From the NCBI GenBank assembly GCA_018666555.1, contig JABIZD010000149.1, forward strand, positions 1 through 33,623: a stretch of DNA of 33,623 bases, in the 5' to 3' direction. Made by a program: the position numbers and the translations under genes. The notes below the pieces were generated by a model. That model did no database searches and was not told the DNA's origin. It saw only the letters and a program-made list of their open reading frames with translations. Positions 2,216 through 11,237 of this stretch are shown piece after piece. This DNA is from Gammaproteobacteria bacterium (GTDB taxonomy: Bacteria > Pseudomonadota > Gammaproteobacteria > Pseudomonadales > Azotimanducaceae). The number at the start of each line of letters is the position of its first letter. Position 1 is the stretch's first letter.

Positions 2216-3061
2216 ATGAATAGCAATATACTCACAGATATTAGAAACCAGGCGGACAAGCTATCTAAGTCGGAGCGGATGGTGGCAGAGTGGCTGCTTG
2301 CCAATGGTCGCCGAGCCGTTGATCAGTCTATCGGTGAGGTCGCGGAAGCGGCCGGTGTCAGTGAGCCAACGGTAATTCGTTTCTGTCGATCAATTGGCTT
2401 ATCTGGCTTCAGGCAACTCCGAACTCACCTTATCGCCGCTCAGCAGAAACCGCAGAGCTATCTCCATAACGATGTTTCCCGGGATGATGTGGCGGAAGAC
2501 GCGGCGATGAAAGTGCTGGAGAACTCAATTCATGCATTGGTCGAATTAAGGGAGTCATTGTCTCAAATGCCTTTTGAAACGGCGGTACAATGTTTGCGAG
2601 ATGCCAGGCTGATTACTTTTGTAGGCCTTGGTGCTTCCGGGTGTGTTGCCAGGGATGCCAATCATAAATTTTTCAGGTTGGGTGTGCCCTGTACTGCAAC
2701 CTTGGATTCACAGACCATACTGCAGCATGCTGCGGTTGCGACTACAGCGGATGTCTACATAGCGATCTCACATACCGGCAACTGGCCTGAACTGATTAAA
2801 GGTATGCAACTCGCGCAGAAGCGGGGCGCGACGGTGATTGCTGTTACAGATCAATCATCAGATCTGGCGCAGACTGCAGACTTGACCTTCCACTGCCATC
2901 CTCCTGAGGATACTAATACGTTTACGCCGATGAGTTCGCGTCTCGCACAATTAACAGTTCTGGATGCCATTCAAGTTTGTCTTGCTATCTCGTTGGGAGA
3001 AGTTGCTGAAGAAAACCTGCGGCTAACCAAAGATGCGCTTATCTCACACCTGAATAGATAG
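2216..3061 (+). CDS. hexR: RpiR-family transcriptional regulator HexR
   Basis: The 281-residue protein has an N-terminal RpiR-type helix-turn-helix domain (about residues 1-77; ...VSEPTVIRFCRSIGLSGF... recognition region) and a C-terminal SIS sugar-phosphate isomerase domain (about 120-260; ITFVGLGASG start and the AISHTGNWPELI loop). HexR controls Entner-Doudoroff and lower glycolytic genes in proteobacteria and responds to 2-keto-3-deoxy-6-phosphogluconate. The start is supported by an AAGG ribosome site six bases upstream. It is the first gene of an operon: pyk begins 7 bp after its stop. In pseudomonads hexR neighbours zwf-pgl-eda; here the partners are pyruvate kinase and two GAPDH-type genes, so the regulator name rests on family features, context and the candidate operators upstream. 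Confidence 0.88.
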   Translation: MNSNILTDIRNQADKLSKSERMVAEWLLANGRRAVDQSIGEVAEAAGVSEPTVIRFCRSIGLSGFRQLRTHLIAAQQKPQSYLHNDVSRDDVAEDAAMKVLENSIHALVELRESLSQMPFETAVQCLRDARLITFVGLGASGCVARDANHKFFRLGVPCTATLDSQTILQHAAVATTADVYIAISHTGNWPELIKGMQLAQKRGATVIAVTDQSSDLAQTADLTFHCHPPEDTNTFTPMSSRLAQLTVLDAIQVCLAISLGEVAEENLRLTKDALISHLNR

Positions 3062-3068
3062 TAATCTC

Positions 3069-4493
3069 ATGCGATCGACAAAAATTGTTGCCACCCTTGG
3101 GCCAGCCAGTGATTCTCTGGTGACGGAACTGATCAGTGCTGGCGTTGATGTATTCCGTTTAAATTTTTCTCATGGTAGTCGTCAAGCGCATTTGGCCAGG
3201 ATCAGAGCTATTCGTAAGGCTGCCGGGGTCTGTGACCGTAGTGTCGCTATTCTAGCTGACCTGCAGGGCCCGAAAGTTAGAATTCGTGGTTTTAAAGAAG
3301 GTTCCATTAACCTGACTATTGGAGATACCTTCAGCCTTGACCCGTCCCTCGGAGCAGATGACGGCGATCAAACTCGAGTCGGTATCACTTACCCTGAACT
3401 GGCTGAAGATGTAGATGCCGGTGACAGGCTGGTTTTAGGGGATGGCAATCCACTTCTGGAAGTACGCAGTGTTAGTGATGGCACGACTCAATGTCTGGTT
3501 ATCATTGGTGGCGTTTTGTCTGCGGGTAAGGGTATTAACCTCGAGGGAGGCGGATTATCCGCTGCTGCGCTGACAGACAAAGATCTCGAGGATTTAAGGT
3601 TTTTGGCAACCCAGGATATCGATTATGTGGCTCTGTCGTTTGTACAAAATGCAGCCGATATCCAGCACGCACGGATGCTAATGGCTATGTCGGATAGCCG
3701 TGCCGGTTTGATAGCCAAAATAGAAAGAGCAGATGCGGTCAGTTCAGATGAGAATGTAGATGAACTGATTATGGCATCTGATGGAATCATGGTTGCTCGA
3801 GGCGACCTCGGCATAGAGATCGGGGATGCAGCGTTAATGGGCATGCAAAAACGACTGATTCAACGGGCGAGGGAATTGAACCGGACCGTCATTACTGCCA
3901 CCCAGATGATGGAGACTATGGTCAGTAATCCCTATCCAACGCGTGCCGAGGTTATGGACGTAGCCAATGCGGTTCTCGATGGTACCGATGCAGTAATGCT
4001 CTCTGCTGAAACGGCAGTGGGCCGATACCCGCTTGAGACGGTGCAGAGAATGGTTAGCGTGATCGAAGGCGCCGAAGCTAGTGCGCAGAGTTTAGAGATG
4101 GCGACGTCTCCGTATCGCTGTGAGAGCATCGATGAGTCGATTGCGATGGCGACGATGATCGTCGCTGAGAGACTGGCCAATATCAAGGCAGTCGTTTCAT
4201 TGACGGCATCAGGGAAAACCCCTCGTCTAATGTCTCGCAGTCGCTCACGCTTACCTATTTATGCTCTGGCGAACAATGAGGCAACCCTGGGGTCGATGGC
4301 TATTGTCCGCGGGGTGCATCCCCGGCTGTTTCGTTCCCAGAAAATCGATTACGACAGAGTTAATGAAGCGGCTATTGAGTTCCTTCAGGATCTCGGAACC
4401 CTATCCTCTGGAGATCGTGTAGTGCTATCAAAGGGGGATTACCGAGATGTTCAGGGCGGAACCAATACAATGAAAATTCTGGAGGTCGTATGA
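3069..4493 (+). CDS. pyk: Pyruvate kinase
   Basis: The 474-residue enzyme converts phosphoenolpyruvate and ADP to pyruvate and ATP. Visible active-site features are R30/N32/S34/H35 (VFRLNFSHGS), K217 and E219 (IAKIER), R244-G245-D246 (MVARGDLGIEIG) and the ATQMMETM helix at 277-284. The barrel is interrupted by a B domain (about 70-165), and a C-terminal regulatory-type domain (about 345-474) is present, so the protein is full length for the family. It follows hexR by 7 bp, and its stop overlaps the next start as ATGA. Co-expression with hexR and gap puts the lower part of sugar breakdown under one control signal. Confidence 0.97.
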   Translation: MRSTKIVATLGPASDSLVTELISAGVDVFRLNFSHGSRQAHLARIRAIRKAAGVCDRSVAILADLQGPKVRIRGFKEGSINLTIGDTFSLDPSLGADDGDQTRVGITYPELAEDVDAGDRLVLGDGNPLLEVRSVSDGTTQCLVIIGGVLSAGKGINLEGGGLSAAALTDKDLEDLRFLATQDIDYVALSFVQNAADIQHARMLMAMSDSRAGLIAKIERADAVSSDENVDELIMASDGIMVARGDLGIEIGDAALMGMQKRLIQRARELNRTVITATQMMETMVSNPYPTRAEVMDVANAVLDGTDAVMLSAETAVGRYPLETVQRMVSVIEGAEASAQSLEMATSPYRCESIDESIAMATMIVAERLANIKAVVSLTASGKTPRLMSRSRSRLPIYALANNEATLGSMAIVRGVHPRLFRSQKIDYDRVNEAAIEFLQDLGTLSSGDRVVLSKGDYRDVQGGTNTMKILEVV

Positions 4494-5503
4494 GCGGCAA
4501 AACAAAAATAGGATTAATGGGATTTGGTCAGATAGGACGTCAGCTGTATAAGCTGGCAATGCAGGATGAGCGTTTTGAGATCGTTGCTATTTCTGATATC
4601 GGGCGAGCTGAAATTCTGGCGCATCTGTTGACTAAAACCCTCGGTGAGTCGAGCGTGAGACTGGAAGGTAACTACCTGCTCGGTGATGGTCTGCGCACTA
4701 GATTGATGACTGCGGACAGCCCGACTGAAATACCATGGGATGTGTTCGATGTTGATGTTGTCATTGATGCAAGCGGTCAGTTCAGAACCAGGGAAGACCT
4801 TGAGCCGCATTTAAATAATGGCGTGAAGCGAGTCATTGTAGCAACCTTGCCTGATGGAGAGATTGACCGGGTCATTCTTTATGGTGTTAATAACTGCGCT
4901 GCAAGCAGCTCGGACACACTGATTTCTGCCGGGTCTGCCTCGACCACTGCAACAGCGCTGGCTCTAGACACGATTAGAAACAGGTTTGAAATAGCCCATG
5001 CGTCGATGACCTCTGTCCACGCTTATACCAGTGATCAAAGCCTGCAGGATTATGCAGGGGCCGACTATCGTTGTAGTCGGTCCGGCGCTGAGAATATTAT
5101 TCCTAATTTGACGCCTGCGCTGGAATGGCTACAGAAAACGCTACCCTTTTTGACGGGTAAAATGACAGGCTACGCGCTTAATGTGCCGGTTCAGTCTGGC
5201 TCCATGCTTGATATCACCGTCAGTCTGGTGGATCAAATTGACGAGGTCGGTGATTTAAAGGATCTTTTCGTTGAATCAGCCAAGGCATCTCCTTCGTTGA
5301 TCGGCGTCACTAGTGACCCGATTGTGTCATCTGATGTGAAGGGTTGCGATAAATCTCTGCTGGTCGACCTAACCGGATCGATTAAGGCAGGTAAACGAAT
5401 ATTTAAACTGATTGCCTGGCATGAGACGATGGGTCATGCAGCGCGGATACTAGATGTAGCCAGTTTATATCAGGGCCTTGATGCGATTGGAGGCCAACGA
5501 TGA
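4490..5503 (+). CDS. GAPDH-like paralogue lacking the catalytic cysteine
   Basis: The 337-residue protein aligns nearly without gaps to the gap product encoded immediately downstream. It has a Rossmann start (KIGLMGFGQIGRQL), the VHAYTSDQSLQDY segment with the active-site His177, and the conserved AENIIP segment. However, the SNASCTTNC catalytic box is replaced by SAGSASTTA, so Cys150 is Ala and Cys154 is Ala. Arg231, which binds the substrate phosphate in GAPDHs, is Asn (NVPVQSGS instead of RVPVPDGS), and the WYDNEWGY box with the nicotinamide-binding Asn is WHETMGH, one residue shorter. It therefore cannot use the normal thiohemiacetal mechanism. The frame is intact and both junctions are 4-bp ATGA overlaps, arguing against a decaying pseudogene. 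It may be a non-catalytic partner in mixed tetramers or a nucleotide sensor (inference). Confidence 0.88.
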   Translation: MSGKTKIGLMGFGQIGRQLYKLAMQDERFEIVAISDIGRAEILAHLLTKTLGESSVRLEGNYLLGDGLRTRLMTADSPTEIPWDVFDVDVVIDASGQFRTREDLEPHLNNGVKRVIVATLPDGEIDRVILYGVNNCAASSSDTLISAGSASTTATALALDTIRNRFEIAHASMTSVHAYTSDQSLQDYAGADYRCSRSGAENIIPNLTPALEWLQKTLPFLTGKMTGYALNVPVQSGSMLDITVSLVDQIDEVGDLKDLFVESAKASPSLIGVTSDPIVSSDVKGCDKSLLVDLTGSIKAGKRIFKLIAWHETMGHAARILDVASLYQGLDAIGGQR

Positions 5504-6504
5504 GAATTGCTATCAATGGCTTTGGCCGGATCGGTAGGGCGGTATTCAGAATTATAGAGTCGATGCCGGATATCGAAGTCGTTGCCATCAACGACCTTTT
5601 CGACACCGCAGCACTGCGTTACCAACTCCAGTACGATACGGTGATGGGGCCATTCGAAGGTGGAGTCACTCTCGAGCAGGATGAGATTATCACCCGCCAC
5701 ACCAGAGCCCGCATGTATCAGGAGAGGGATCCTGCTGATTTGCCCTGGGGGAAATTAGGGATTGATGCAGTAGTCGAGAGTACCGGCATCTTCCGCAAAC
5801 GTGAACAACTGCAAAAACATCTTGATGCAGGTGCAAAACGCGTATTGCTGACCGTTCCATCGGCTGACAAGATCGATTACACCGTGGTACTTGGAGTCAA
5901 TGACCAAGGTTTGTTACAGGACCACCGTCTCGTCTCAAATGCGAGCTGCACCACTAATTGTTTGGCACCCCTGGTAAAAGTACTGCATCAGGCTTTTGGC
6001 TTACGTGAGGGCGTCATCAATACGGTGCATGCTTACACGAATGACCAAAGTTTGGCAGACGTGCCGCATGCTGACTGGCGGCGCAGCCGAGCAGCAGCAG
6101 AAAACATTATTCCGACCTCGACAGGAGCGGCTAAAGCGGTTGGAGAGGTGCTGCCTGAGTTGAACGGTAAACTTGATGGAATTGCCTCGAGGGTGCCTGT
6201 TCCAGATGGGTCCGTGGTTGACCTTTATGCTGAACTGGAAACATTAACGACGACCTGCGGGCTGAATGAGGCGATTAGATCAGCGGCGGCAACAGATACT
6301 TTTAAAGCGGTGTTGCAGTACTCAACAGAGCCAATTGTCTCCTCCGATATTATTGGTAACCCTCACTCATCGATCTTCGATGCGTCCTTTACACAGGTGA
6401 TCGAGGGCCGTTATGTCAAAGTTCTGAGTTGGTATGACAATGAATGGGGATATGCTAACCGGGTTTGTGACGTACTGGCGCGGTTTGCGGCCTTTAGCAG
6501 CTAG
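5500..6504 (+). CDS. gap: Glyceraldehyde-3-phosphate dehydrogenase, type I
   Basis: The 334-residue NAD-dependent enzyme oxidises and phosphorylates glyceraldehyde 3-phosphate to 1,3-bisphosphoglycerate. It has the MRIAINGFGRIGR nucleotide-binding start, the intact SNASCTTNC box with Cys150, His177 in TVHAYTNDQSL, Arg231 in RVPVPDGS, and WYDNEWGY with Asn314. It is full length. Its ATG overlaps the TGA of the cysteine-less paralogue, so the two are probably translationally coupled and made in comparable amounts. It ends the hexR-pyk operon. Confidence 0.96.
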   Translation: MRIAINGFGRIGRAVFRIIESMPDIEVVAINDLFDTAALRYQLQYDTVMGPFEGGVTLEQDEIITRHTRARMYQERDPADLPWGKLGIDAVVESTGIFRKREQLQKHLDAGAKRVLLTVPSADKIDYTVVLGVNDQGLLQDHRLVSNASCTTNCLAPLVKVLHQAFGLREGVINTVHAYTNDQSLADVPHADWRRSRAAAENIIPTSTGAAKAVGEVLPELNGKLDGIASRVPVPDGSVVDLYAELETLTTTCGLNEAIRSAAATDTFKAVLQYSTEPIVSSDIIGNPHSSIFDASFTQVIEGRYVKVLSWYDNEWGYANRVCDVLARFAAFSS

Positions 6505-6785: not shown

Positions 6786-7934
6786 ATGGCCGTTAGATTT
6801 ACAGATCAAGCACCGCGTACGCTGCATTATACCCAGGCCTATAACGACAGTAATTCGGACTGGGAAAAACTCGACCCCGAGCTGGATATGAAAATCTCAG
6901 AACAGACTGTTGAAGAGCTGGCGGAAATTTTCAGGACGCCACTGACTGGTACTTACAACTGGGATTATCAGGTCCAGGATGATCGCATCAAGAAGCTTTA
7001 CAATCTTGGCAAGCAATTAAATTGGAATGCGGATTTTGATATTGATTGGAAGCAAGAAGTCCGGCAATTATCGGAAGACGAAATTGCATTTGTGCATCCC
7101 TTTCATGATTACGACGAGTACCTGGCTCTTTCTGCGCAGGCCCAGGAAAACTTTACCAAACACATGCACACCTGGACCATCAGTCAGTTCCTGCACGGCG
7201 AGCAAGGTGCTTTGCTGGTCGCCTCGCAATTAATCTCCTGTGCACCTACGTTCAACGCGAAGCTGTACGCCTCGTCGCAGGCGTTTGATGAAGCTCGCCA
7301 TGTGGAAGTATTTAATAAGTATCTAGACGAAAGGGCGGGCCTGCGATATCCCGTCAACAATGCCTTAAAGAGCTTGTTAGACAAAATCCTTACCGACGAG
7401 CGATGGGATTTGAAATTTATTGGCATGCAAATCGTCATCGAGGGCTTGGCATTGTCAGCATTTCAGGCCATTAAAGCCATCACGCCCGACCCATCGCTGA
7501 GCGATCTACTCGGATTGGTTATTCGCGACGAATCGCGACACGTGACCTTCGGCGTAAATTATCTGGAAGAATTCATCAAAACGTTAACTGAAGAAGAGAA
7601 AAACGAGCGGGCGATGTTTGCCTATGAAGCCTGCCTGATCAGCCGAGAGCGGTTGGTGCCAACTGATGTTTTCGAATATTGGGGCTGGAACCAGGACATG
7701 GCGCGAGAACTATTTTTAAAAGGTAACGTATTTGCAGATTTCCGAAAACTATTGTTTACTCGGGTCGTGCCAAACCTAAAGCGGATCGGTTTGCTTACCC
7801 CGGAAGCGCGCTTGAAATTTGAAGAAATGGATATACTCCAATACGAAAACATGGCCAATGATGGCGATATCGATTGGGCAGATTTATCGCGTCCGCTGGA
7901 TATCAAAGGTAGCCCTGAAGCGAGCTCCGGCTAG
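6786..7934 (+). CDS. Ferritin-like diiron protein (candidate N-oxygenase or hydroxylase)
   Basis: The 382-residue helical protein carries a full set of diiron carboxylate ligands: E139 (HGEQGAL), E169-x-x-H172 (DEARHVEVF), E219 (VIEGLAL) and E249-x-x-H252 (RDESRHVTFG). This is the ligand pattern of the ribonucleotide-reductase-like/ferritin-like superfamily, which includes AurF-type p-aminobenzoate N-oxygenases. No signal peptide is seen, so it is cytoplasmic. The start has a clear GGAGG site (CGGAGGAACC before ATG). It stands alone, with a 281-bp upstream region containing two palindromes. The substrate cannot be told from sequence; N-oxygenation, hydroxylation or desaturation are all possible for the family. 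Confidence 0.85.
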   Translation: MAVRFTDQAPRTLHYTQAYNDSNSDWEKLDPELDMKISEQTVEELAEIFRTPLTGTYNWDYQVQDDRIKKLYNLGKQLNWNADFDIDWKQEVRQLSEDEIAFVHPFHDYDEYLALSAQAQENFTKHMHTWTISQFLHGEQGALLVASQLISCAPTFNAKLYASSQAFDEARHVEVFNKYLDERAGLRYPVNNALKSLLDKILTDERWDLKFIGMQIVIEGLALSAFQAIKAITPDPSLSDLLGLVIRDESRHVTFGVNYLEEFIKTLTEEEKNERAMFAYEACLISRERLVPTDVFEYWGWNQDMARELFLKGNVFADFRKLLFTRVVPNLKRIGLLTPEARLKFEEMDILQYENMANDGDIDWADLSRPLDIKGSPEASSG

Positions 7935-8382
7935 CTCCGCGAACTGGCTTAAAAACCCGTATGGCAAGGGATGATTCCATTTTCATGCAAGGGAGAGGTA
8001 ATGGGTAACCAGATCACGGCGAAGGCTGCTAGTGCCGAATGAGCTTGCCTGGCGTTGAATTCTGAAAGTGCCTATTCGTTCACCGGATTCAGGGCCGGCG
8101 AAAGTAAGTTGCAAGGCCTGGACATGACTGGCAGTGGTTGTTCAATAGAACAAGATGTTTTCGCCTTAGCTTCCTGTTTCTCCGGGGCGTAGGCAGAAGG
8201 TGGTAATGCCAGGTGCCACAGCCATAGCAAAGTCAGAGATGGGGTTTTGACTATCACCTTCAGTTGTGGATTAGCTGGAGGCCCTGATAAGGTCGATATA
8301 GGGGGTATGCTGTTTGCCAACCCTAGATCAGGGCCTTACACTCGGAGTCAGACAGCAATCAATATCAGGAGCGGAGAGTTCA
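7935..8382. other. Non-coding stretch before the molybdenum hydroxylase genes
   Basis: No convincing gene. A minus-strand frame (8072-8320) reads as low-complexity, proline-rich protein without family features. A plus-strand frame here is interrupted by stops. The promoter of the downstream operon should lie here, but I could not identify clear -10/-35 boxes. Confidence 0.35.
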
Positions 8383-8916
8383 ATGGCGAGATATCAACTC
8401 AACATTAATGGCCGGGACCTTGAAGTCGATGTCGAGGCTCAAATGCCTCTTTTGTGGGTGCTTCGAGATGAACTTGGCCTTATAGGTACGAAATTTGGAT
8501 GCGGGATTGCACAATGCGGAGCCTGTACCGTTCATGTTGCCGGCAAACCGATTCGAGCCTGTGTTACCCCGGCATCTGCTCTTGTAGGTCAACCGATTCG
8601 AACCATTGAAGGCTTGGCTGATGGCACAGAACTACATCCCTTGCAGCAAGCATGGATCGATGTTGATGTCGCCCAATGCGGGTACTGCCAGTCTGGTCAG
8701 ATAATGTCAGCTGCCGCTCTACTTGCAGAAAAGCCAAGTCCAACCGATGAAGATATAGATGCGGCTATGGTCGACAACTATTGCCGATGTGGTACTTACA
8801 ACCGCATTCGCAAAGCTATTCATTTGGCTTCTGAAAATACCCCCTCGCAATTTTTTGATGCATCGCAAGGTGGTGGTGATTTTCATGTCAAACAGCGAAG
8901 TGAGGGTCAGTCATGA
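8383..8916 (+). CDS. Molybdenum hydroxylase [2Fe-2S] subunit (isoquinoline 1-oxidoreductase alpha-type)
   Basis: The 177-residue subunit has eight cysteines for two [2Fe-2S] clusters. A plant-ferredoxin-type site is formed by C40, C45, C48 ([11 protein letters not shown]) and C60, and a second site by C99, C102 (QCGYCQSGQ) and C134, C136 (NYCRCGTY). It passes electrons from the molybdenum centre to an acceptor. The start at 8383 is preferred to an in-frame ATG at 8314 because family members begin about ten residues before the beta-grasp fold, as [15 protein letters not shown] does, and a GGAG stretch lies upstream. The stop overlaps the next start as ATGA. No signal peptide is present; such subunits are usually exported by hitch-hiking on the Tat-signal large subunit. 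Confidence 0.93.
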
Positions 8917-11237
8917 ATGATCATGATTTCATGAGTGAATCTGACCGGGACATCGACCTTGTTCGTGCAGTTGAGCTCGAACTAAACGCCCTCGCGGAAA
9001 CGACTGATCAGGCAGAGCCGTTTTTAATCAAAAAACTGCATCGCCGGGCCTTCCTAAAGCTCAGCGGTGTAGCCGGTAGTAGCCTGGTTCTCGCCTCGGT
9101 GCTATCTGGCTATGGTACCGCAGCCAAAGCAGAAGACCTCGGTAGTTTAGTCGGCTCGATTGAGCTTAATGCGTTTATCAAAGTCTCTTCCGAAGGCAAA
9201 ATTGTTATTTATTCGTCAAACCCGGAAATGGGCCAGGGAATTAAAACCGCCTTGCCGATGATTATTGCAGAGGAAATGGGAGCGAACTGGGAAGATGTTG
9301 AAGTCCTGCAGTCTGATGTTGATGAGTCGCGATTTGGTCGGCATAGCGCCGGAGGTTCTACCACGATACCCAGGACATTCGATCAGATGCGAACCATGGG
9401 GGCATCAGCGCGCGAGATGTTCATCGGAGCTGCATCAATCTCCATGGAGCTCCCTCGAGATGAACTGCATGCCCAGAACAGTACGGTTTCACATCTTTTT
9501 TCAAGCAAGTCACTCACTTTTGGTGAGCTTGCCGCACTCGCTGTTAAACAGCCCTTACCCGATCCGAAGAATCTTATTTTTAAGGACAAGGCAGATTATA
9601 CGATTATCGGTACCTCGGTAACGGGAGTCGATAACCTTGAAATTGTCAGTGGCCTGGCACTATTCGGTATTGATGTGCGTGTACCCGAGATGCGATATGG
9701 CGCCTATCAGAAGTGTCCTGCATTTGGTGGCAAGGTTATAAGTGCAAATCTCGAAGAAGTGAAAAAATTACCGGGTATTACTGACGTTTTTATACTCGAG
9801 GGAAATGATAATGTTCGCGAATTATCTTCTGGAGTGGCGTTGGTCGGAACGTCTACCTGGGCGGTTTTTAATGCTAAAAAGCAGCTCAGGATAAACTGGG
9901 ACGAGTCCTCCGCGTCAAAAGACAGTTGGACCCAGATGGTGTCAAGAGCCAAGCGGCTTCACTCCCAGCCTGGAGAAACCCTGATCGCAGAAACCGGTGA
10001 CGTTCAGTCCAGTTACAGCAATCCTGATCATCAAACCATTGAAGCTTTTTACGAATACCCGTTCGTTGCTCACTTGTGTATGGAGCCCATGAATTGTACT
10101 GCGCATTATAAGGCAGGTCATGATGGAACCCCGGATAATTTAGAACTATGGATTCCGACTCAGGCTCCCACTCGTGCCTATCCCGTTGCCAAGTCGTTAT
10201 TTGGCCTTGACCAGGCACAAGTCAAAATTCATCAGATGAGATTAGGCGGTAGTTTTGGTCGCAGGGTCTATAGCGAATATATCTGTGAAGTGATAGCTAT
10301 GTCCAAGCAGGTCGGGGCGCCGGTTAAATTGACTTGGTCGCGGGAAGATGATTTACAGCATGATTTTTATCGCGTCGGAGGCTTTCAATCAGTAAAGGGA
10401 AGCATTGATCAGACAGGTAAGATTGTTGCTTTTGAAGATCACTTTATGGGTATGACCTATAAAGGTGGGCGTATCAGTGGCTCTGGCTTTCGTGCGACAG
10501 AGTTCCCCATGCTCAATCTGAAAAATACCCGCGCGACCCAGACTATGTTCGATATTCAGACGCCCTGTGGACCCTGGCGTGCTCCGGGAGCCAATACCAC
10601 AGCATTTGTTATCCAAAGTTTTATTCATGAACTGGCAGTTAAAGCAGGCCGGGATCATCTGGAAGTCTTACTCGAGCTCATGGGCGAACCACGCTGGTTC
10701 GATCAGGGTAATGTCCGGTCACTCAATACGGGCCGTGCTGCTGATGTCATTAGCCTTGCTGCCAAGAAAGCTAATTGGGGCAGGAGCCTGCCAAAGGGCC
10801 ATGGCCTCGGCCTGGCATTCCACTTTAGCCATGCGGCCCATGTGGCCGAAGTCGCAGAGGTTAGTGTTGATGCCAGCAAGAAACTCAAGGTCAACAGGGT
10901 AACGGTCGCCGTCGATGTGGGTCCAATTATTAATATGAGTGGAGCAACTGCCCAGGTTGAAGGGGCAGTCATTGATGGTTTGAGTACTATGCTGGGGCAG
11001 AAGATAACCATGGAGCAAGGTCGCATCCAACAATCGAATTTTCATGATTACCAGGTGCTTCGTTTACCCAATGCGCCAGAAGTCGATATTTACTTTATTC
11101 AAAGTGATTATAGCCCTACAGGATTAGGTGAGCCTGCTTTGCCACCATTGGCCCCGGCGATTGGTAACGCTATTTATGCGGCGACTGGTGAAAGAGTGCG
11201 GAAGATGCCGCTAACGGATGAGGGTTATACTATTTAG
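8913..11237 (+). CDS. Molybdenum hydroxylase large subunit (isoquinoline 1-oxidoreductase beta-type), Tat signal
   Basis: The 774-residue subunit binds molybdopterin and carries the hydroxylation site. A twin-arginine motif (R44-R45-A-F-L-K) and hydrophobic stretch predict Tat export, with cleavage near residue 73 (AAKAED). The motif is preceded by an unusually long 43-residue acidic n-region. Mo-cofactor segments such as GGSFGRR and [11 protein letters not shown] are visible, and the family catalytic Glu fits E740 in GLGEPALPP. The two-subunit arrangement without an FAD subunit matches isoquinoline oxidoreductase and related periplasmic aldehyde or N-heterocycle oxidoreductases, which use cytochrome c as acceptor. 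No cytochrome, maturation chaperone (XdhC-like) or molybdenum transport gene lies beside it. The substrate is unknown. Confidence 0.93.

Follow-up and report, generated by a model that had tools for sequence, protein, structure and literature searches.

We found that gapX, located directly upstream of an intact GAPDH gene (gap) in the window (the whole 33,623-nucleotide stretch of gammaproteobacterial DNA that was analyzed), encodes a GAPDH paralogue which, by its sequence, has lost Cys150 and Arg231 and retains the GAPDH fold, the dinucleotide-binding glycines and Asp, and much of the S-loop. The best explanation, to which we assign a probability of about 60%, is a hetero-oligomeric GAPDH in which GapX, itself catalytically dead, assembles with the live enzyme encoded by the next gene. 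By analogy, this oligomer could take the form of an A2B2 tetramer. The mixed oligomer, raised in the initial annotation as mixed tetramers, is the preferred reading because it best accounts for the strict pairing of gapX with gap.

In the proposed mechanism, GapX and Gap would associate, aided by coupled translation of their overlapping genes. GapX would still bind NAD(H) or a related nucleotide, yet form no thioester, and through the common subunit interface it would set the affinity, cooperativity or stability of the live subunit. The gapX-gap pair would be the glycolytic or Entner-Doudoroff GAPDH of these bacteria. More tentatively, at somewhat less than even odds, the pair may be an obligate two-subunit glycolytic GAPDH in which the dead duplicate is a built-in NAD(H)/nucleotide sensor, inherited and transferred as a unit and, in several lineages, placed inside Entner-Doudoroff/PEP-node clusters.

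GAPDH is among the most studied enzymes and, to our knowledge, is generally taken as a homotetramer outside plastids. Plastid GapA/GapB is an A2B2 GAPDH in which neither subunit has lost the catalytic Cys and regulation of GapB runs via a C-terminal extension. A two-paralogue hetero-oligomer with GapX would work alike, whereas GapX has no notable C-terminal extension and is dead by sequence. Dead paralogues also act as regulatory subunits in HisZ with HisG, the trypanosomatid AdoMetDC prozyme, and PDX1.2 with PDX1. Like gapX, each is a dead paralogue kept with a live enzyme as a presumed regulator, but none is a GAPDH, and those complexes were proven by experiment, whereas gapX is known here from sequence. 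For the AdoMetDC prozyme, the pairing of a dead paralogue with the live enzyme is also described in one report (PMC10211241). Dead regulatory paralogues are thus already known, and a dead bacterial GAPDH subunit would be new; we found no description of a natural Cys-less GAPDH paired with gap in searches of an open-access library.

If true, a bacterial GAPDH would be controlled through subunit duplication, via a natural, selected dead subunit. The fixed changes (loss of Cys150, R231N) would then give a handle on half-of-sites behaviour and NAD cooperativity, and an apparent second gap gene, as annotation of such genomes would call it, would in some cases not encode an isoenzyme.

Sequence and predicted structure of GapX

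The gapX frame starts with ATG and contains no internal stops. The initial annotation described it as clean and overlapping both pyk and gap by ATGA, which the ORF coordinates bear out (last base of pyk, 4493; first base of gap, 5500). The features of the locus are given in Table 1.

Table 1. Features of the gapX locus, in positions of the window
Feature	Position	Strand	Basis or conservation
HexR-like RpiR-family regulator gene	2216..3061	+	PRK11302 HexR top match, 236 bits, below cut-off 296
pyk, pyruvate kinase, upstream of gapX	3069..4493	+	PRK05826, 552 bits, cut-off 432
ATGA overlap, pyk stop / gapX start	4490..4493	+	ORF coordinates
gapX, predicted catalytically dead GAPDH paralogue, 337 aa	4490..5503	+	ORF, Pfam GAPDH domains, AlphaFold2/Foldseek
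gapX codons 11-16, GFGQIG dinucleotide-binding loop	4520..4537	+	Gly11, Gly13 and Gly16 invariant
gapX codon 36, Asp kept	4595..4597	+	Asp in 66/66 distinct homologues
gapX codon 150, Ala for catalytic Cys	4937..4939	+	A54, P7, S3, G2 among 66 distinct homologues
gapX codon 177, catalytic His kept	5018..5020	+	66/66 distinct homologues
gapX codons 178-201, S-loop region	5021..5092	+	Several residues common to gap; pLDDT <50 in monomer model
gapX codon 231, Asn for Arg	5180..5182	+	66/66 distinct homologues, 4/4 divergent forms
gapX codons 309-316, AWHETMGH	5414..5437	+	Alignment; His316 in 66/66 distinct homologues
ATGA overlap, gapX stop / gap start	5500..5503	+	ORF coordinates
gap, 334 aa, intact type I GAPDH (live partner of gapX)	5500..6504	+	TIGR01534; Cys150, His177 and Arg231 present

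Both Pfam GAPDH domains, Gp_dh_N (PF00044, 8.7e-18) and Gp_dh_C (PF02800, 2.5e-29), matched gapX above their cut-offs, in order and over the full length. A comparison with the PDB matched 140 distinct sequences at E values up to 0.001, the best being a solved GAPDH (3.9e-51, residues 5-314). On the TIGR01534 equivalog model (cut-off 367), gapX scored 218 bits and the window's gap 417 bits. We also considered gapX as a known GAPDH subtype (erythrose-4-phosphate, ArsJ-associated or PRK08289) and rejected this, as it fell under every curated model cut-off. gapX has the fold, dinucleotide-binding loop, catalytic His and much of the S-loop in common with type I phosphorylating GAPDH (TIGR01534; PF00044 and PF02800), but differs from it in lacking the catalytic Cys and Arg231, in its rewritten C-terminal box and in its score on that model.

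The identity between gapX and the window's gap is only 32-34%, and the numbering at positions 150, 177 and 231 is common to both. Their alignment agrees with the earlier description: Cys150 and Cys154 are both replaced by Ala, Arg231 is replaced by Asn, and His177 is kept. It also bears out the rewritten, shortened box, in which AWHETMGH replaces SWYDNEWGY with one residue fewer. The claim of a kept overall fold stood up in Pfam and in the predicted model; "almost without gaps" was slightly generous, since short gaps interrupt the alignment at the box and around residues 48, 53 and 267. In GAPDHs, Arg231 is the phosphate-binding residue, and the Asp at the position of Asp36 of gapX is the ligand of the NAD ribose. 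The predicted binding of NAD by GapX is uncertain, because the box that contacts nicotinamide in GAPDHs (309-316) is changed.

Given 10 gap sequences and 10 further gapX sequences, AlphaFold2 produced a full-length GAPDH model of the gapX monomer (mean pLDDT 86.8, pTM 0.87). An earlier model from 14 close gapX sequences was poor (pLDDT 54.8) and was set aside. The sole long segment with pLDDT below 50 was the S-loop region. In GAPDH, the S-loop packs against the neighbouring subunit and its NAD, so low confidence is expected in a single chain and proves nothing. In a Foldseek search with the gapX model, the best 50 rows were GAPDH-family entries matched over the whole length with TM-scores of 0.82-0.87, and some matches were engineered GAPDH Cys mutants. 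Such C149A, C149S and C150A enzymes (PDB 1npt, 1nq5, 7c5i and others) fold without the Cys and some were crystallised with NAD, indicating that Cys loss alone spares the GAPDH fold and NAD binding. They are laboratory-made, whereas gapX is natural and carries many further changes.

The main rival to the mixed oligomer is that GapX is a cysteine-independent enzyme, for example one catalysing NAD-linked sugar-phosphate oxidation or reduction via His177, with the substrate passed to or from Gap. The cleft residues Asn231, His177, Asp142 and His316 are invariant or nearly so, a conservation beyond the seeming need of a purely structural subunit. However, the gapX family has no new conserved cysteine (the best Cys column holds 27 of the 66 distinct sequences), and a replacement nucleophile was rejected on this ground; Cys195 of the window's gapX is Arg in 65 of the 66 distinct homologues. 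Moreover, the box on the nicotinamide side is rewritten, and a separate enzyme needs no pairing with one gap class at every locus. We consider a cysteine-independent enzyme unlikely.

Conservation and selection of gapX

We collected 69 alignment rows of gapX, representing 66 distinct sequences (three were entered twice), with the window's own among the 66. The initial annotation had asked whether a Cys-less group with Asn231 is conserved, and such a group was found: all 66 distinct sequences, drawn from many genera and families, belong to it. The dN/dS that it also called for was low, with a median of 0.128 for gapX and 0.092 for gap (Nei-Gojobori; medians from 56 pairs with dS of 0.05-1.5 for both genes). 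The gapX value was below 0.26 in all 60 pairs computed, out of 411 candidate pairs; the pairs share genomes, hence they are non-independent. By this measure of codon change, gapX is under strong purifying selection.

gapX changes faster than gap, with a mean pairwise identity of 56% versus 73% and 48 versus 122 invariant columns. Residues ~45-53 of gapX are rewritten in the main lineage, which may affect a subunit interface. gapX has lost several residues that are otherwise universal in GAPDHs, as would be the case if gapX were a functionless, decaying duplicate. However, open frames, low dN/dS and losses fixed across families and two orders refute decay or a frameshift and leave this reading a negligible chance; the same results uphold the earlier proposal that the dead enzyme is maintained.

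To describe the spread of gapX, we scanned one genome per species for 84,980 species and found 14 gapX loci at 61-66% identity. All 14 are from metagenome-assembled genomes (by record title, 9 Pseudomonadales, 4 Gammaproteobacteria and 1 Robiginitomaculum). In whole-genome searches (E values up to 1e-60), gapX was present in 38 of the 200 genomes covered for the window's family and in 32 of the 390 covered for its order, two overlapping sets. This distribution is a lower bound, since the E-value limits of these searches and of the class search described below miss forms as divergent as that of genome G018 (below). Within the window's genus, gapX was present in 1 of 15 genomes, the window's own. 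Among the other 14, 10 gave GAPDH matches of at most 37% identity and 4, all less than 90% complete, gave none. A protein search of plasmids returned 263 records, every one below 60% identity; the best 10 of the 263 reached at most 36.1%, and nine of these were annotated as GAPDH.

Pairing with gap and genomic context

The position beside gap, noted earlier for the window, recurred throughout: in 68 of 68 loci, a set that leaves out the copies of the window itself (L001, L002), the next gene is gap, read from the same strand. The two genes overlap by 1 base in 45 loci and by 4 bases in 14, and are 0-17 bases apart in 9; start codons were script-chosen, so overlap lengths are approximate. The gap partners keep Cys150, His177 and Arg231 in 68 of 68 rows reaching those columns, and one more is cut at a contig end.

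In the family and order searches, the partners belong to one gap class, whose members show an identity of 66% or more to the gap of the window. In the order search, partner-class gap and gapX were found in exactly the same 32 of 390 genomes, and the next best gap was 58% identical. In the family search, partner-class gap was present in 36 of the 38 gapX genomes (next best gap, 59%). In the remaining two (G042 and G178), gapX lies at, or no more than 577 bases from, the contig end on the gap side. Partner-class gap without gapX was not seen in the 200 family or 390 order genomes, which are overlapping sets. One contig (C1 of G128) carries two separate gapX-gap pairs (L098 and L099), ~2.5 Mb apart on 4.3 Mb.

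Judged from these gene arrangements, it is difficult to account for the pairing without an action of GapX on Gap; on the other side, operon-level selection or co-transfer could produce it without contact. Another way for GapX to act would be as an assembly or stability factor that binds Gap during folding and stays outside the final enzyme. The upstream position and the overlapping genes suit such co-translational binding, but the retained nucleotide-binding and cleft residues would be unnecessary, and we regard this role as improbable.

We compared 41 regions that carry the main-lineage pair. They include the window, several are short, and at least one genome is represented twice. All 41 contain gap, whereas ppc was detected in 11, hexR in 10 and pyk in 4, and some regions also contain eda, edd, zwf, pgl or glk; gene detection was strict and these counts are lower bounds. 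The adjacency of pyk to gapX is not conserved, and a gapX role tied to HexR or pyk was rejected on these counts. GapX could also be a free-standing sensor or a moonlighting protein (regulatory, or RNA- or scaffold-binding) that is merely co-transcribed with gap; its nucleotide-binding fold is kept without catalysis, and GAPDHs are known moonlighters. However, gapX keeps to one gap class, whereas the presence of hexR, pyk, ppc and the Entner-Doudoroff genes varies among regions. A free-standing moonlighting scaffold, as raised in the initial annotation, fits less well because gapX and its partner were never seen apart in the searched genomes except at contig ends, and we give it little credence.

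One region (L114) has the order zwf-pgl-edd-eda-gapX-gap-ppc with a divergent hexR. In 9 of the 41 regions (L108-L114, L119, L120), gap is followed on the same strand by a PEP carboxylase-like gene, named from its motifs. A PEP carboxylase-like gene lies upstream of the pair in two others (L098, L123).

The genus relatives without gapX have a different gap, ~48% identical to the window's, beside a divergently read hexR. Around this other gap are zwf, pgl and eda, plus edd and glk in most (four larger regions read). Since these relatives have another gap beside hexR and Entner-Doudoroff genes, their gap and the gapX-gap pair look like alternatives for one metabolic slot. In genome G014 (L126, 6066-7248), the ordinary gap beside hexR is split across two overlapping frames, by a frameshift or an assembly error.

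Besides gapX and gap, the window's genome (assembly 97.6% complete) has one ArsJ-associated and one long PRK08289-type GAPDH gene, and the window's gap is the sole GAPDH found there outside those subtypes. An Edd-like gene (56% identical to a relative's) and a PFK-family gene are present. The ArsJ-associated GAPDH is encoded on the minus strand of contig C151 (L003, 1480-2499; NF033735, 523 bits, cut-off 450). Directly after it on the same strand (272-1483) is a multi-spanning transporter-like ORF of 403 aa, presumably ArsJ.

Divergent forms and origin

A search at class level, covering 369 genomes, brought in three more, all from another order (G681, G797 and G895). Their form carries SCGSSTTH in place of SNASCTTN, changing Cys to Ser, and has Asn231, a nearly intact box (YDNGWGY) and an intact gap next to it. 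This doublet was found in 3 of 17 genomes of that order, all of one genus. In the window's family, the G018 form, which came to light while a neighbouring locus was read, has Cys changed to Gly and Asn231, and lies immediately before a gap 58% identical to the window's. The divergent forms scored 324 and 318 bits on TIGR01534, again under the cut-off. When the G018 form served as the query, it was recovered from 1 of 114 genomes, and the remaining matches (E up to 1e-90) were gap genes. The Cys-to-Ser form, searched against the phylum, matched 89 of 299 genomes at no more than 44%, and the 19 of these loci that were read, apart from the window's, all keep the Cys motif.

In a tree of 55 sequences, the 16 dead copies form one side of a branch (bootstrap 100, SH-aLRT 98; 200 of 200 bootstrap trees), and a quick tree of 120 rows gave the same grouping with support 99. 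The live side is less clear, as the partners, including that of G018, came out as a single group in just 30% of bootstrap trees. Asn31, Cys150, Gly209, Arg231 and Glu315 are among the residues that nearly all live GAPDHs have and that none of the 73 dead rows retains; Asn6 is also absent from all 73. Asn147, Cys154 and Pro157 are lost in the dead rows except the G018 form. In gap numbering, Gly7, Gly9, Gly12, Asp32, His177, Asp182, Arg194, Ser196 and Arg197 are kept in at least 71 of the 73.

gapX and its partners have Ser196, Asn202 and Gly237 in common, which occur in 2, 4 and 5, respectively, of 39 ordinary GAPDHs (a set that leaves out 13 rows of the ArsJ-associated and long subtypes). These common residues suggest a duplication on the partner's own stem, with the position of the root left unfixed. 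When trees were built from 32 sequences each of gapX and gap, 11 of 29 splits were common to both, compared with a shuffled mean of 0.27 and a largest value of 2 in 300. The 9 strong gapX splits are all compatible with the strong gap splits, but as there are only 3 of the latter, the test is weak. This agreement partly reflects common species history. In both trees, one genome of the window's family (G062) falls with another family (f40), a placement that transfer of the gapX-gap pair as a unit would produce.

We also examined the surroundings of the locus in the window. A HexR-like palindrome pattern was rejected, with 1 match at three mismatches versus 1.46 in shuffles. A promoter scan gave two sites, both within pyk, versus 6.8 expected. 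Downstream of gap on the plus strand, positions 6786-7934 encode a ferritin-like protein with a weak AurF match (PF11583, 36 bits, cut-off 29.6). Further along the same strand (8314-11237), a [2Fe-2S] protein gene overlaps by ATGA a 774-aa ORF, which we take to resemble a molybdopterin aldehyde-oxidase-type large subunit.
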